Shown: positions 5,239 to 39,895 of the stretch, piece by piece
How positions within the stretch are numbered: the stretch's first letter is position 1
Layout: each line of letters opens with the position of its first letter
Assembly: GCA_946186495.1 (NCBI GenBank)
Contig: CAMHNQ010000005.1
Location: 1-64,000 of the forward strand
Source: an uncultured Bacteroidales bacterium
GTDB taxonomy: Bacteria; Bacteroidota; Bacteroidia; Bacteroidales; WCHB1-69
Direction of reading: 5' to 3'
Length of the DNA stretch: 64,000 bases
The notes under the pieces: generated by a model
Databases searched by the model: none
The model's input: the letters and a program-made list of their open reading frames with translations, nothing else
What the model was told of the DNA's origin: nothing
Position numbers and translations under genes: made by a program

Positions 5239-5649
5239 CTATTCGTTTAGAAATTCTGTCGGAGACAAAACTGGTATGTTGGATAAAGCGTAATCTTTCT
5301 CGTTTCTAGTAACAATCATTTCCGCATTTGCCGCCAATGCTGAATAATATTGCATACCATCTTCCAAATCCGAAAAATCGGATTGCAAAACGCGATCAAT
5401 CACAGACGAATCAACGGTTGTAACCGTACAGAGGGATTTGGCGATAGTCAACTTGGTGATTATCTCTTTTCGACTGTATTTTAGACGATGCATCAGATAA
5501 ACAGCAGTGGAAAACGACAGCGAACAACACAGTAGATCCAACTCTTTACGGTCGGCCATGCTGAACAAAACCGAAGCTTGATGCACCCATGGTTGACGCT
5601 CAAGCAACAAATCCAGCAGGATGTTGGTGTCAATGAACACTCTTTTCAT
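5239..5649 (-). CDS. PIN-domain ribonuclease toxin (VapC-like)
   Basis: MKRVFIDTNILLDLLLERQPW...; conserved acidic residues, DLEDGMQYYSALAANAEMIVTRNEKDY. Confidence 0.88.
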   Translation of the reverse strand: MKRVFIDTNILLDLLLERQPWVHQASVLFSMADRKELDLLCCSLSFSTAVYLMHRLKYSRKEIITKLTIAKSLCTVTTVDSSVIDRVLQSDFSDLEDGMQYYSALAANAEMIVTRNEKDYALSNIPVLSPTEFLNE

Positions 5650-5873
5650 AAGTACTTCTCTTTAAGGTGTTCCATCTTTAGAGTATCAAGTTCCTCGTCT
5701 GACAGATTCACAGAATGACCTGTCAACATGCTGGATACTAAAGGGGAAACGCTATGGTCGCGCGTACTTTTCCCCGTCAGTGACTTGACAAATTCGGCCA
5801 CTTTCTCCAACATATTCAACGACATTGAACTTAAATCGTCGTTAATGCTTGCTCTTAAATCTATTGCTGTCAT
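5646..5873 (-). CDS. antitoxin partner of the PIN-domain toxin
   Basis: Small ORF directly upstream of and overlapping the PIN gene; 4-bp overlap typical of TA modules. Confidence 0.7.
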   Translation of the reverse strand: MTAIDLRASINDDLSSMSLNMLEKVAEFVKSLTGKSTRDHSVSPLVSSMLTGHSVNLSDEELDTLKMEHLKEKYL

Positions 5874-5979
5874 ACTGAACAAATGTTTACATGTTTACAG
5901 ATTGCAAAAATACATTTTTTTCAATATTGTTACGTTCCGTGGATTACTTATGAAAAAATGACATTCATGTCATTGGGGG

Positions 5980-6956: not shown

Positions 6957-7487
6957 CTATTGGGTGATAGATTTCGCTTTTTGCAGCAATTTTTCTTTGA
7001 TACGGTGCAGTTTTATCCCAACGTTTGCCACTGAAATGCCCATAATGGCCGCAATTTCGTCGTAACCGATGCCCTCCAACCACAGCAGCACGAGTCCGCG
7101 GTCCATGACATCTAACTGGTTGATGAGCACATAGAGCTGACGGACCTGCTCGAGCGAAGAGTCCTGCGGGTCGTAGGGGTCGATGTCGGTGCTGAGCGGG
7201 ACGGTCTGCGGACGGCGTTTCGCCCGTTTGTCGCTGTTGATGGCAGTGTTGAGCGCAATACGATAGACCCACGTGTTCACACTGCTGCGTTGCTCGAACT
7301 GGCCGAAGCCCAGCCACAACCGCACCAGAATCTCCTGAAAGAGGTCGTTGATTTCCTCGTTGTCGCGGGAGAACATGTAACAGACGGAGTAGATTGTCCG
7401 CTTGTACTGTTTCACCAGTTCCTCGAATTGCTTTTCTTTGGCACTTTTCATCTGACCGTTTGGGATTTTTATGACGTTAGACAACAT
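6957..7487 (-). CDS. ECF-type RNA polymerase sigma factor
   Basis: Region 2 (YSVCYMFSRDNEEINDLFQEILVRLWLGFGQF...WVYRIALNTA) and region 4 (GYDEIAAIMGISVANVGIKLHRIKEKL). Confidence 0.9.
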   Translation of the reverse strand: MLSNVIKIPNGQMKSAKEKQFEELVKQYKRTIYSVCYMFSRDNEEINDLFQEILVRLWLGFGQFEQRSSVNTWVYRIALNTAINSDKRAKRRPQTVPLSTDIDPYDPQDSSLEQVRQLYVLINQLDVMDRGLVLLWLEGIGYDEIAAIMGISVANVGIKLHRIKEKLLQKAKSITQ

Positions 7488-7562
7488 CGCCCGAAAATCC
7501 TTACAGGAGGTTGTGTGTTTTTTCGATTTCCGAGTCCTTATCCGGGGGAATCACTCTCAGGC

Positions 7563-8957
7563 CTATTTCAAATCGGCCATGCTTTCAATTTTGTCATACA
7601 AATTGGACACTGCAAAAAGTGGGAGTATCTGAACGTGACGCACAACATCGTTATCTTTCTTGTCGCAATGTTCAATAGCTGAAAAATTCTCAAGAGTACA
7701 GCGGACTGCATCGGTCAGGTGCTTCTGACGCATAAACTCGTACAGGCTCTTCATCTTACCGCTTACGCCTGCTTTGCATTCTACAGGCAGCACCCTCAGG
7801 TCACGGGCAATGATATAGTCCACCTCAGAGCGTGTTCCTTCGGCTGTGTTCTCCCAATAGTAAAGTTCGTGTTGAGAACGGGGATTGTCGTATTTCACCA
7901 GTTCCCAACCTAACATCATCTCAGTCAGACAACCTTTGTTCACCAAATCTTCAGCAGTGCCGGCAAGAATCAGTTCTGTGAGTTGACGTGCGCCTCCCAA
8001 ATCCATGTCGAGAATGCGCAGCAAAAGACCACTGTCGAGATAGATATATTTGCGAAATTTATCATTAACCTCGGCACCGAGCGGAAGGCCGTTGGAAGCG
8101 GTGTGGCTGACGCGTTTTATGATGCCCGCATCGCACAAAAGCGACAGTGCTTTCTTCACCTCTTCGGCACGATAGCCACCCTCCACCCGACTATAAGTAA
8201 ACTTGGTGCCAATCTGCATGACGACGCTCTGCAACGTATTACGCAGCAGCGTAGGGTCAACTTTCTTAGCATACTTGGGAAAATCGTCATAGTAGGTCAG
8301 CTGGATATCATCAAGCTCTGTTTGACATTGACGGTAATCGCGGGTTGTCACCCAGGCGGCCACACTGGCAGGCATTCCACCCACCATTAAGAAAATACGA
8401 TAGTGTTGCACAAGATCGTTGTACAGTGTAGTAAGCAAGGGCTTTTCGGGGGTTGCATTCTGCTTGGATTTCACCCAAGCGGTTTTACCCTCAGCCACAA
8501 GAAACTCGTCGAACGAGAATGGATAGACAAACAGCGAGCGTATCCGTCCCACCCCGAACGAAGGCAGGTCTTTAAGGGCAAATTCCAACAACGACCCGGC
8601 AGCAGCCACATGAAGATCGGGAAAGTCCTCCTTGAAAGCCCAAAGGCTCTTGATGGCATCGACTGAATTCTGGATTTCGTCGAGGAAAAGCAAGGTCTTT
8701 CCAGGCACAACAGGGGTGTTGTAGAGCATGCTCAGTGTGTTCGTCAACTCGTGTACTTCGTGGATTTTTTGAAAAACCTCCAACATGTCGGGACGTTTTT
8801 CAAAGTTCACCTCAATAAAATAATCAAACGTTTCGCCCAAATGCTTCACAGCCCATGATTTGCCCACTTGGCGAGCACCTCTAAGCAGTAGCGGCTTGAG
8901 ACGACTGCTGTTTTTCCATTCCAAAAGCAAGGTGTCAATTTGTCTTTCAATATACAT
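7563..8957 (-). CDS. AAA ATPase with C-terminal DUF4143
   Basis: LLLRGARQVGKSWAV Walker A, LLFLDEIQ Walker B, C-terminal EVDYIIARDLRVLPVECKAG nuclease-fold-like segment. Confidence 0.88.
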   Translation of the reverse strand: MYIERQIDTLLLEWKNSSRLKPLLLRGARQVGKSWAVKHLGETFDYFIEVNFEKRPDMLEVFQKIHEVHELTNTLSMLYNTPVVPGKTLLFLDEIQNSVDAIKSLWAFKEDFPDLHVAAAGSLLEFALKDLPSFGVGRIRSLFVYPFSFDEFLVAEGKTAWVKSKQNATPEKPLLTTLYNDLVQHYRIFLMVGGMPASVAAWVTTRDYRQCQTELDDIQLTYYDDFPKYAKKVDPTLLRNTLQSVVMQIGTKFTYSRVEGGYRAEEVKKALSLLCDAGIIKRVSHTASNGLPLGAEVNDKFRKYIYLDSGLLLRILDMDLGGARQLTELILAGTAEDLVNKGCLTEMMLGWELVKYDNPRSQHELYYWENTAEGTRSEVDYIIARDLRVLPVECKAGVSGKMKSLYEFMRQKHLTDAVRCTLENFSAIEHCDKKDNDVVRHVQILPLFAVSNLYDKIESMADLK

Positions 8958-9004
8958 TTCAAAATGTTTTATTACATCCTTTCAGGCCGCAAAGATACAA
9001 ATTC

Positions 9005-9090
9005 TGACAAAACCGAGAGGAATAAACATATTATTTTTGACAAAACCGAGAGGAATAAACGCGTTGTTTCTGACAAAACCGAGAGGAACT
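9005..9090. repeat. three direct repeats (tgacaaaaccgagaggaataaac) with exact 33-bp period upstream of the DUF4143 ATPase
   Basis: Copies start at 9005, 9038 and 9071; TATCTTTG box (minus strand, 8990-8997) lies between the repeats and the gene. Confidence 0.9.
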
Positions 9091-9113
9091 GTACCAGCTC
9101 CAAAAAAGTGGAT

Positions 9114-10061
9114 TCATTCCGCCCCCTTCGGCTTAAAATACACCATCTGATTCGGGAAATCAATCACCACTTCACCCATGCGTTGCAGTAACCCGAAACC
9201 GAAATAGCCGATAACATCCTTGGAGGGAGCCTTGCTGGCGTGACCGGACGCGTCCGTATTCGCCCACGTATGCACGGAATCCACCACAAAGTTCGGCATC
9301 ACCAGACGTTTCGCGTCAAAAACTTCATTGGTGCTACTGCCCGAAGCCCCTTGGGTTGTCCTTGAAATTTTGGCTATATCCAAACTTCCAATATCCAATT
9401 TCCGCACCACATCCGCGAAAAGGCAAAGATCCGTGCCCATCCCGGAGTCGAATAACAGTTTTCCGGAAATTTTCAGGCTGTCCGTCACAAAAAGCGTGGC
9501 AGGTGCCTCGAAATAATAGTCTTTGTCCCGATAAAACAGTTTCAGGGCGTGCCAGTTTTTCCGCACCGAATCGGGAACAGAAGGCAGAATATCGAACGAA
9601 CGCGTGCCAAAATCAAATGCCCATACATGCTTTTTAATAAACACAAGCCCTATTACCCCGTCAATGCTGTCATTAAACGTGCTTCGCAGGTTGGGAGCGG
9701 GAATAATCGGAAACTCTTCCCGCTTTTCTGCAATCGTGATGTTCCAATCCTGAAACGCCTTCACCACCTGCCGCCCTTCCGTGCCGATTCCCTCAAATGC
9801 CATTGTCTGTTTGCTTTCGTAACCGTAGTGGTTATCTACAAACGTGCTGTCCAACCACACGAAAGGGGCCGCACAATCATAAACCAGCCTGACGGGCAAG
9901 CTGTCGTTCAGGAATGCATCCACGTAGATGTGCGGAGTGAAGGTATGGAAACGGTAGGGGTATTTTTGAACAAAACGGCTGTCGGCATCACCGCCACTCG
10001 GTTGACCGGTGCACGACAGCAGACTTCCCAAAATCCCGATGAAAATGAGGTGTTTTTTCAT
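9114..10061 (-). CDS. secreted retropepsin-like aspartyl protease family protein
   Basis: Lipoprotein-like signal (LLSCTGQ); two Asp-containing segments (VRLVYDCAAPFVWLD; GKLLFDSGMGTDLCLF). Confidence 0.65.
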   Translation of the reverse strand: MKKHLIFIGILGSLLSCTGQPSGGDADSRFVQKYPYRFHTFTPHIYVDAFLNDSLPVRLVYDCAAPFVWLDSTFVDNHYGYESKQTMAFEGIGTEGRQVVKAFQDWNITIAEKREEFPIIPAPNLRSTFNDSIDGVIGLVFIKKHVWAFDFGTRSFDILPSVPDSVRKNWHALKLFYRDKDYYFEAPATLFVTDSLKISGKLLFDSGMGTDLCLFADVVRKLDIGSLDIAKISRTTQGASGSSTNEVFDAKRLVMPNFVVDSVHTWANTDASGHASKAPSKDVIGYFGFGLLQRMGEVVIDFPNQMVYFKPKGAE

Positions 10062-11565: not shown

Positions 11566-12879
11566 CTATATCAGGTTTTCTTCCAACAGAAACGGAATAA
11601 CGCCCATATACATGATGCCGTTTTCATCTGTCCAAGGCTTCGCGTTTCCGTCCACAATGACAATCTTGCGGAAGAAGTCGCCCGAATTTTTCAACGAGAA
11701 GGTTTCCTGACTACGTTTCTCCCCAGTGTCCACGTTCAATGCCGATTGGATATAGACTTTTTCGCGACCCGTATTGACAACGAAATCGATCTCGTATTGC
11801 GACTGTTGCCTCTTGCCGTCCTTCACGCGGGTCAGCTCCACCACGCCCACATCCACACTGAAGCCTCTGCGGATGAGCTCGATGAAAATCATGTTCTCCA
11901 TCAGGTGCGATTTTTCCTGTTGCCGAAAGTTCAGCTTGGCATTGCGCAAACCAGCGTCCATCGAATAGTATTTCAGTGTGTTCTCGAAATAGCGTTTTCC
12001 TTTCACATCAAACCGCTTCGCACTCACGAAAAGGTATGCTTCCTCCAAATAGTCCAGATAGTTTTTGATGGTATTGTCCGAAGTGTTGCGTTTCATCAGC
12101 GTGCCTGCCGCATTGGCCAGATTGTGCGGGTTGGTCAGCGAGCCCACGGCCGATGACAGCGCATTAATCAGTGCGTCCAGAACCTCGTCATCCTTCAGTT
12201 TGTAGCGCTCCACGATGTCCTTGATATAAACCCTCTTGTGGAGTCCTTTCAGGTATTTTCGCTTCTCCGTTTCGTCCTTTTCCAGCACCGCCAACGGCAT
12301 CCCGCCGTAGGTCAGGTATTCCTCCAGCGCATCCGCCTTTTCCATCCCCGAAACAGGGTAAAATTCCTTGAACGACAATGGATAGACTTTAACTTCCGAC
12401 CCACGGTCGCGGAAGTTGGTTACGATGTCCTTAGAGAGCATCTTGCTGTTCGAGCCAGTGACATAGATGTCGAGATTTTTGCGTGCCATCAGGTCGTTCA
12501 GGATATCGTAGAAAGTGGTGTAGAGCATATCACGATCTTCTTCGGGAACCAACCGTTCGTCCACATCCTCGTTTTTCACTTTATACGACAGCTGAATCTC
12601 ATCGATGAAGACGTAGTAACGCTTTTCGACATCCTTCGTCTTTCGGAGCACATAATCGTATAGTTCGTTGGGATTCCTGTACTTTACATGTGCCTTCTTG
12701 TCTAATGCCAGCTCCACGAAACACTCTTGCGTCACCCCTTCGTTCAACAGGTGATCCTTGTAAAGCGTGAAGAGCAGGAACGATTTTCCACAACGGCGTA
12801 TGCCCGTAATGATTTTCACTTTCCCGTTCCATCTTTTGCTAAACAACTCACTGATATACTGATCTCTTTGTATAATCAT
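11566..12879 (-). CDS. AAA ATPase with DUF4143
   Basis: MIIQRDQYISELFSKRWNGKVKIITGIRRCGKSFLL (Walker A), YYVFIDEIQ (Walker B), EIDFVVN near the C-terminus. Confidence 0.88.
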   Translation of the reverse strand: MIIQRDQYISELFSKRWNGKVKIITGIRRCGKSFLLFTLYKDHLLNEGVTQECFVELALDKKAHVKYRNPNELYDYVLRKTKDVEKRYYVFIDEIQLSYKVKNEDVDERLVPEEDRDMLYTTFYDILNDLMARKNLDIYVTGSNSKMLSKDIVTNFRDRGSEVKVYPLSFKEFYPVSGMEKADALEEYLTYGGMPLAVLEKDETEKRKYLKGLHKRVYIKDIVERYKLKDDEVLDALINALSSAVGSLTNPHNLANAAGTLMKRNTSDNTIKNYLDYLEEAYLFVSAKRFDVKGKRYFENTLKYYSMDAGLRNAKLNFRQQEKSHLMENMIFIELIRRGFSVDVGVVELTRVKDGKRQQSQYEIDFVVNTGREKVYIQSALNVDTGEKRSQETFSLKNSGDFFRKIVIVDGNAKPWTDENGIMYMGVIPFLLEENLI

Positions 12880-37376: not shown

Positions 37377-38975
37377 ATGAACAACGCCCGCAAATACCCC
37401 GTCGGCATCCAGACCTTCGAGAGGCTGAGAAAAGAGAACTACCTCTATATCGACAAAACAGATTTGGTTTGGAAGATGACCAAGGAGAGTCCTTTCGTCT
37501 TTCTCAGCCGGCCGCGCCGGTTCGGCAAATCGCTGCTGACAACCACGCTGGATTCGTATTTCAAAGGGCAAAAAGAACTCTTCGAGGGGTTGAAAATCAT
37601 GGACTTGGAGACAGAATGGGAATCGTATCCTGTCATTCATGTCGATTTGAGCACAGTCAAGAACAAACCCTCACCAGATGAGTTGGAACGATCGTTGTCG
37701 CTGATGCTTGAACCCATAGGGGAAATGTTTGGCACGAATGAACGCGAGAAAACCCCCGGCGAGAAACTCCAGGGACTTATCCGTCGCGCCTATAAGCAGA
37801 CGGGCAAGCAGGTGGCCGTCATCATCGACGAGTACGACGCACCGCTGTTGGACAAACTGCACATTCCGCAAGTGCTGGAGGGTTTCCGCAACGTGATGCA
37901 GGAGTTCTTCATCCAGCTCAAGGCCAACGAGGCCATGATCCGCTTCTGCTTCATCACCGGCATCACCAAGTTCTCGCAACTCAGCATCTTCTCCACCATC
38001 AACAACCTCACCAACATCTCGCTGGATGCCAAGTACGCCGCCATTTGCGGTATCACAGAGGAGGAACTCGCCACTGATATGGTCCCCGACATCGCCATGC
38101 TGGCCGAGAAGTACGAATGCACCCCCGAGGAGATGCACGACAAACTGAAAAAACAGTACGACGGTTACCGATTTTCGGAAGAATCGCCTGACCTGTACAA
38201 TCCGTTCAGCCTGCTCAAGAGCTTCAACCAACGTAAAATCGCCAACTACTGGTTCGAGAGCGGCACGCCCACCTTCCTCATCCGCCAGATGCAGCATTTC
38301 CGCACCGACATCACCACGCTGGAGCGCATCGAAGCCTCGGCGACCGCCTTCGACCGCCCCCCGGAGGCCATGAACACCGCCCTGCCGCTGCTCTACCAAA
38401 CCGGATACCTCACCATCAAGGAGTACGACCGGGAGTCCAACTCCTATATCCTGTCCATCCCGAACAACGAGGTCCGCACGGGATTCATCGACGGGCTGAT
38501 CCCCACCTACATCGGGCTGGACGGAAGCTACGTGCAGGATGGCTTCGCCCTGAAGTTCTGGCGCGCCCTGAGAAAGCGCGACATCGACCTCGCCATGAAG
38601 GAGATGAAGGCCTACTTCGCCGGACTGCCCTACGTGGAGGGCTTCCAAAAGAAGTTGGAGCAGGTGAAGAACTACGAGGGGTTCTACGAATGGTCGCTGT
38701 ACCTGATCTTCTCGATGCTCAACGTCTATGTGCGCACCCAAGTCAAGTGCGCGGGCGGCCGCACCGACGTTGTGGTGGAGATGCCCGACACCACCTACGT
38801 CCTCGAACTCAAGGCGAACGGCACGGCGCAGGAGGCCTTGGACCAGATCAACAGCAAGAACTATGCCCTGCCCTACGAGACCGAAGGCCGCCAGGTCGTG
38901 AAGGTCGGCGTGGCGTTCGAGCGGGAGACGATGACGGTGGGGGATTACAAAGTGGAATTAGGAATTAGGAATTAG
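37377..38975 (+). CDS. AAA-ATPase-like / PD-(D/E)XK nuclease superfamily protein
   Basis: YPVGIQTFERLRKENYLYIDKTDLVWKM, FLSRPRRFGKSLLTTTL, C-terminal GGRTDVVVEMPDTTYVLELK. Confidence 0.92.
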   Translation: MNNARKYPVGIQTFERLRKENYLYIDKTDLVWKMTKESPFVFLSRPRRFGKSLLTTTLDSYFKGQKELFEGLKIMDLETEWESYPVIHVDLSTVKNKPSPDELERSLSLMLEPIGEMFGTNEREKTPGEKLQGLIRRAYKQTGKQVAVIIDEYDAPLLDKLHIPQVLEGFRNVMQEFFIQLKANEAMIRFCFITGITKFSQLSIFSTINNLTNISLDAKYAAICGITEEELATDMVPDIAMLAEKYECTPEEMHDKLKKQYDGYRFSEESPDLYNPFSLLKSFNQRKIANYWFESGTPTFLIRQMQHFRTDITTLERIEASATAFDRPPEAMNTALPLLYQTGYLTIKEYDRESNSYILSIPNNEVRTGFIDGLIPTYIGLDGSYVQDGFALKFWRALRKRDIDLAMKEMKAYFAGLPYVEGFQKKLEQVKNYEGFYEWSLYLIFSMLNVYVRTQVKCAGGRTDVVVEMPDTTYVLELKANGTAQEALDQINSKNYALPYETEGRQVVKVGVAFERETMTVGDYKVELGIRN

Positions 38976-39655
38976 GAATTAGGAATTGGGGCTTTCCGTC
39001 GTATAAAACTTGAGTATCCACAACGCTTTCACCGTACAATTTCCTCAGATAGTCCAGGCCCTTGAAAAACGCAGTATGGCAATTGCTTGCCGATTTAATC
39101 TCAAAAGCCGACAGATTGCTGTAAGAACTCTCGGCTATCATATCCACTTCGCTTTGTGACTTGTCACGATAGAAATAAAGATGGGGCGACTTGCCACGGT
39201 GGTAAAATTGTTTCATCATCTCAGAAACCACATAGTTTTCGAAAATCTGCCCCCTGAGCGGATGCGTTGACAGTTTCGCCTCGTTCATTATGCCAAGAAG
39301 ATGGCACAAAAGCCCTGTGTCATAGAAGTAACGCTTGGGAGTCTTCACGATTCGTTTCCCGATATTTCGGAAACATGGAGGCAACGTGAATGTAATGTAT
39401 GAGGTTTCAAGAATACTATTCCAATGCTGGATGGTCTTCATATCCACCCCGATTTCGTTGGACATGTCTGAAGGGACGAACATGCAGCCACCTCTGCCGG
39501 CTGAAAGTCGGATGAACTGCGTGAACGACGATAAGTTTTTCACATTGATTAGCTGGCGCAAATCCCTTTCGATATAGGTGGAATAATACGCCGAACAAAT
39601 GTCGGCTGGCGGAAGGCTGTGCGCCCACACAGCTGGGAATCCGCCCCGCAAGATT
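38965..39655 (-). pseudogene. C-terminal fragment of a DUF4143 ATPase
   Basis: LRGGFPAV...YYSTYIERDLRQLINVKNLSSFTQFIRLSAGR...SEVDMIAESSYSNLSAFEIKSA; no Walker motifs; upstream end abuts a palindrome. Confidence 0.8.
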
Positions 39656-39656
39656 G

Positions 39657-39695
39657 AGGGTGTGTCAAAAGTCTCGTTTTGGCACACCCTCTTCT
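39657..39695. repeat. palindrome gagggtgtgtcaaaagtctcgttttggcacaccctctt
   Basis: Second copy of the 36524 hairpin, at the truncation point of the DUF4143 fragment. Confidence 0.85.
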
Positions 39696-39895
39696 TGCAT
39701 AACTTGGACGGGAGGACATCGCCTTCGTCAACGCACTGTTGCGCCACCGTGCAGGAGAAAACGAACTTCCACGGGTTCAGCACCTCAACCCCATTTCATA
39801 CAACATCACACCCATTTCATACAACGGGAGCCTCAACGGTTCACGACCGGCAAGGGACAATGCTATCTTTGCCGCGTATTTCAAAAACCAAGGCA

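Follow-up and report, generated by a model that had tools for sequence, protein, structure and literature searches.

Repeated binding sites beside the gene of their own binder are familiar from Orc1/Cdc6 initiators on origin repeats and from plasmid iterons, and MalT-type STAND activators act on phased MalT boxes upstream of promoters. In an E. coli defence island, the RptR operator consists of three direct repeats, is bound cooperatively and overlaps a core promoter box; its repeats are 9 bp long, with one conserved palindrome, TAGCTA (PMC12255303). PDC-S01, a single-gene phage-defence candidate with putative antiphage activity, ranks fourth by frequency among prokaryotic defence systems in one report, which describes experimental validation as pending for most PDCs (PMC12988326), and is called very common in the rumen in another (PMC13356809). 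The passages on this family mention no cis element, and in the open-licence literature we found no published description of the arrays reported here or of a PDC-S01 mechanism.

The array described here lies in a window of 64,000 nucleotides (the whole stretch of DNA analysed) from an uncultured Bacteroidales bacterium. PADLOC classes the window protein as PDC-S01, and likewise the proteins from other phyla whose genes have arrays. Like the RptR operator, the array is formed by three direct repeats in the promoter of a defence-candidate gene; unlike it, this type of array has a period of 32–33 bp, a non-palindromic unit in the window, a gene-specific word and the ATPase itself as the likely binder, and TAGCTA is absent from the window array. 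As in the MalT/STAND systems, the direct repeats in front of the promoter would be the target of an ATP-dependent P-loop protein, but the domain set is different (Pfam gives AAA_14 and DUF4143 only, with no NACHT/NB-ARC and superstructure-forming repeats) and the arrays of paralogs often overlap the -7 box or sit downstream of it. With Orc1/Cdc6 and the iterons the locus shares AAA+ fold matches (2qby, 2v1u) and iterated sites next to the gene of the putative binder; it differs in that these matches reach a TM of only about 0.3, the protein has a C-terminal nuclease-type domain and nothing at the locus points to an origin.

The repeat array at the promoter of the ATPase gene

Three identical 18-bp units with a period of exactly 33 bp, spanning 9005–9088, lie within the 156 bp that separate the ATPase gene from a retropepsin-like gene at 9114–10061 (Table 1). 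Read along the gene (minus) strand, units 3, 2 and 1 are followed by 7 bp, the -7 box and the start codon at 8957, and TGACAAAACCGAGAGGAA starts at 9005, 9038 and 9071. The original prediction of three repeats 33 bp apart, placed upstream of the ATPase -7 box, agrees with this arrangement. The 23-mer ending in TAAAC that it had quoted is complete at 9005 and 9038, whereas the third copy shares only the identical 18 bp and continues with CTGTA. Nor is the unit a generic dispersed repeat unrelated to the gene family, the finding that would have spoken against the prediction: at up to two mismatches, the three array copies have no further match in the 3.3-Mb genome.

Table 1. Coordinates of the ATPase gene, its promoter box and the repeat units in the window
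Feature	Position	Strand	Basis
ATPase, AAA_14 + DUF4143, 464 aa, PADLOC PDC-S01	7563..8957	-	Pfam, PADLOC, alignment; Walker motifs, E..D-x(n)-ExK motif of PD-(D/E)XK type
-7 promoter box of the ATPase gene, TATCTTTGC	8989..8997	-	sequence
Unit 1, promoter-proximal, TTCCTCTCGGTTTTGTCA, putative operator	9005..9022	-	sequence; phase to the -7 box kept in orthologs
Unit 2, putative operator	9038..9055	-	sequence
Unit 3, distal, putative operator	9071..9088	-	sequence; without the GTTTA that precedes units 1 and 2 (gene strand)
Spacer between units 1 and 2, 15 bp, period 33	9023..9037	.	spacer part poorly kept in ortholog arrays

Chance does not produce such an array in shuffled sequence. Matches to the 23-mer at up to three mismatches were absent from 100 dinucleotide shuffles of the window, and the score at lag 31–34 is 16/16, compared with a mean of 9.2 and a maximum of 13 in 1000 shuffles. 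The nearest unit spans the stretch expected for a -33 element, and the window promoter has no TTTG at the usual spacing. The TA..TTTG motif of the -7 box is present in 124 of the 131 family upstream regions. A coding, leader-peptide or UTR element was ruled out here, since the array precedes the -7 box; in arrays of orthologs, for example that of L039, the reading frame open in the window is interrupted by stops. As to a structured RNA, no Rfam match to E 0.1 was obtained across 7400–9400.

Arrays and private words in the PDC-S01 family

The array-bearing subfamily comprises long AAA_14-DUF4143 proteins (about 430–475 aa), which score best with the PADLOC sub-profiles PDLC04786/04788/04792. 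A collection of 84,980 species genomes yielded 32 related loci; orthologs with an intact upstream region, down to 55% identity, have 2–6 units at 32–33 bp, some of them degenerate, and the lone relative at 34% identity has no 32–33-bp repeat. Among 106 non-redundant family upstream regions, mainly from one genus and placed by automatically picked gene starts, so that a few may be misplaced, 87 (82%) have a direct repeat at lag 30–36, with the peak at exactly 33; when the window clade is left out, 65 of 82 regions still do. The corresponding values for control genes, drawn from one related genome and the window, are 10% of 241 genes and 6% of the 85 genes with a TA..TTTG box. In a class-wide set fetched afterwards, with one gene per genome across the class, arrays of 32/33 bp precede 19 of 20 genes of the long subfamily (18 of 19 without L248, a gene of the window's own genome), and the diverged DUF4143 members serving as an internal negative control have an array in one case out of nine.

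Outside Bacteroidota, named records place such arrays in Chlamydiota, Fusobacteriota, Actinomycetota, Bacillota and Pseudomonadota: Criblamydia (32 bp), Fusobacterium animalis (32), Glaesserella (33), Acinetobacter towneri (32), Collinsella (33, three copies) and, weakly, Ruminococcus albus (32). Nine of the 11 named records tested, a set that includes three further Bacteroidota, exceed their shuffles, and the seven named-record proteins scored by PADLOC are all PDC-S01. Thus, a 32/33-bp array at its own promoter accompanies the long PDC-S01 subfamily almost as a rule.

The arrays have a fixed orientation, contain six units at most and extend as far as 160 bp upstream. Between neighbouring units within ortholog arrays, identity is 0.93 in the 18-nt core, where the search pattern fixes some positions but the free ones are also high, and 0.52 in the remaining 12 nt (the spacer part). 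Measured from the -7 box and taken modulo 33, the word's position is constant in the window clade (mean -25.9, R 0.98) and less so in the other paralogs (R 0.59), the Rayleigh p-values overstating independence because the sequences are related; orthologs in which the unit nearest the promoter has decayed still keep this phase. Of the 62 paralog arrays, 43 have units overlapping the -7 region (-30..+8 of the -7 box) and 22 have a unit downstream of the start of the box.

The conserved period, the phase to the promoter, the better conservation of core than spacer and the paralog copies on or downstream of the -7 box all support the operator array that had been predicted, and a survey of other family members showed that this protein subfamily has 32/33-bp arrays in different genera, classes and phyla. 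Beyond that prediction, the family proved to be PDC-S01 and each paralog to have its own word. The window genome holds 23 DUF4143 genes, many of them with a different repeated promoter word. Among orthologs the word drifts by lineage (TTCCTCTCGGTTTTGTC, TTCGTCTGTATTTTATC, TTCCTCTGACTTTTTTC, TTCCTCTTTATTTTTTG). The word match amounts to 13.8/16 at a protein identity of at least 80% and falls to 8.55 at 25–35%, shuffled words giving 8.27. Close orthologs retain the word, paralogs have unrelated ones, and word and protein diverge jointly. When the words of three further paralogs were searched in their own genome, two were found at their own promoter only; for the third, there was an extra gene-less pair of units 2.8 kb away. 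A comparison of the orthologs with changed words (L022, L039-041, L047) and the CGG group gave no single column switching in all of them. In L029, L030 and L046, an inverted half-word copy (ACCGAGAGG or CCGAGAGG) lies at the ribosome-binding site, within the last 20 bp before the start codon.

The ATPase gene is a patchy cargo of a variable site: the syntenic relatives G014, G004, G011, G035 and G030 have other genes between flanking genes shared with the window. In G039 (L240, G039:C47:900-3200, compared with window 8967/7505) the ATPase ORF is absent between matching flanks, and what remains of the locus, a single unit, the -7 box and a portion of the 5' UTR, runs straight into the sigma-factor flank, forming a natural promoter fusion from which only the ORF and its immediate flanks are missing. 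Orphan arrays also occur: at L004, L008, L009 and L010 in relative genomes, units and promoter-like DNA persist where the ATPase gene has disappeared or only a C-terminal remnant of it is left, and the window genome itself has an array without the ATPase gene (L222 3477-3527; C25:9476-9526). Since arrays persist where the ATPase is lost or reduced, the array moves together with the gene and can survive its loss. A relative was found on only one viral contig, with its own array of about 33 bp (L221). A scan of IMG/VR for phage-borne decoys of the unit returned one match, apparently in coding DNA, which was taken as chance.

The array as a putative private operator

The window ATPase matches Pfam AAA_14 (PF13173, E 8e-22) and DUF4143 (PF13635, E 5e-24), and in PADLOC PDC-S01 (PDLC04786, E 4.3e-126). 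In 36 diverse members, the N-terminal AAA_14 P-loop domain is found without exception, and E378, D380, E393 and K395 are invariant or nearly so; Glu378/Asp380...Glu393-x-Lys395 represents the PD-(D/E)XK pattern, which the literature likewise assigns to PDC-S01. The AlphaFold model has a mean pLDDT of 74 and is poor at residues 281–330 (pLDDT 28–46), a likely winged-helix region modelled too uncertainly to define a DNA-binding surface. The fold matches of the model are weak (TM about 0.3) and include the AAA+ DNA-dependent ATPases Orc1/Cdc6, in complexes with origin DNA (2qby, 2v1u), and RuvB, as well as the MalT entry 8bob and STAND proteins. A PDB sequence search with the single protein returned nothing useful, and a profile search gave only midasin and 2fna.

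We consider it probable that the array is the private operator of the ATPase gene, to which the gene's own product binds cooperatively, repressing the promoter. The identity of the binder, the cooperativity and the preference for repression over activation are what we infer here from the sequence relationships. Several AAA_14-DUF4143 protomers would occupy neighbouring, directly repeated words of about 18 bp on the same helix face and, with a period of 32–33 bp equal to three turns, could assemble cooperatively over the -33/-7 region. Their own promoter would thereby be shut off and the protein level kept low, until phage infection, a change of nucleotide state or titration stripped the protomers off. 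Side-by-side binding on one helix face requires a three-turn period with variable spacer and copy number, which is the pattern seen. The one-to-one pairing of word and protein points to the ATPase as the binder of its own array, and the units that overlap or follow the -7 box in paralogs argue for repression.

This last point weighs against a rather unlikely variant of the same scheme, in which the ATPase binds the array but acts as a MalT- or STAND-like ATP-dependent activator, recruiting RNA polymerase in a positive-feedback switch. Direct repeats phased to the promoter up to 160 bp upstream would suit such an activator, as would a window promoter devoid of a canonical -33 element at the usual spacing and the presence of MalT and STAND proteins, besides Orc1/Cdc6 and RuvB, among the fold matches. 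These matches are weak, however, and units in the positions occupied in paralogs (22/62 downstream, 43/62 overlapping) block polymerase. A further step, in which every long-subfamily PDC-S01 ATPase-nuclease is kept assembled on its private array as a poised sensor, so that the array would be a storage site as well as an operator, is a speculation to which we give a small chance. Release triggered by an invader through titration, decoys or nucleotide state would then both derepress the gene and free an active nuclease oligomer, and the fast divergence of words would stop about 20 coexisting copies from silencing one another.

That the repeats are bound not by the ATPase but by a separate regulator, encoded by the host or the island, is improbable. 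It has a precedent in RptR, a small regulator that represses a defence island via three direct repeats (PMC12255303), and it is the presumed binding of the ATPase, read from sequence, that it would replace. However, with many of the 23 paralogs having a word confined to their own locus where this was tested, as many dedicated regulators would be needed; the neighbouring genes differ between loci, so that no conserved regulator gene accompanies the ATPase, and the word and the ATPase diverge together. The patchy occurrence of the gene, the relative that retains a single unit and promoter without the ATPase ORF, the gene-less arrays and the PD-(D/E)XK-type motif could also suggest that the array serves as a mobility site (for homing, integration or excision) or as the nuclease's self-address, and not chiefly as an operator. 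We regard this as very improbable: the units flank the gene on a single side, with constant orientation and in phase with the promoter, no second array was seen beyond the 3' end of the ATPase gene, and the G039 junction omits just the ORF and its immediate flanks. Functionless tandem duplication by slippage near the promoter is hardly credible. Copy number does vary, and the arrays of L023 and L027 are homogeneous over the whole 33 bp, but the core is far better kept than the spacer, unrelated words share the period across phyla, the arrays are phased to the promoter and the control genes lack the repeat.

PDC-S01 is described as being among the most abundant families of defence candidates in prokaryotes, and a private operator array would provide the first handle on its mechanism. 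The operator reading predicts that these ATPase-nucleases bind DNA sequence-specifically and that the binding word of each can be read from its own upstream DNA. The array would also be a ready reporter for what releases the PDC-S01 ATPases, and the many distinct word/protein pairs per genome would make a natural data set in which to read a protein-DNA recognition code, and possibly a source of mutually orthogonal repressors.

Other DUF4143 genes and further features of the window

The second AAA_14-DUF4143 ATPase of the window (11566-12879, minus strand), for which PDLC04787 is the best sub-profile, lacks a 33-bp array; a near-perfect inverted repeat, CTGCAAAAATgGTCG / CGACtATTTTTGCAG (12940-12926 / 12918-12904), lies a short way downstream of the -7 box of this gene. 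In the genus set, with the score used, inverted repeats replacing the 33-bp arrays were not enriched in array-less members. Among 26 short DUF4143 genes (about 385 aa) of other groups, counted without matched controls, nine are preceded by palindromes and four by 22-bp repeats. The sites precede the start codon at L180, L184, L185, L188, L197 and L199, and also at L189, L193 and L206, and consist of a long palindrome with arms of 13–20 bp or of 22-bp (two-turn) direct repeats. DUF4143 genes may thus generally have self-operators, with geometries other than that of the 33-bp array.

At 37377-39783, a 532-aa ORF with a P-loop-like N-terminus and no PADLOC match adjoins a truncated, apparently decayed DUF4143 remnant (272 aa, minus strand). 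At 5239-5882 (minus strand), the gene of a PIN-domain protein and a small ORF upstream of it overlap, and the two likely form a toxin-antitoxin pair of the VapBC type.
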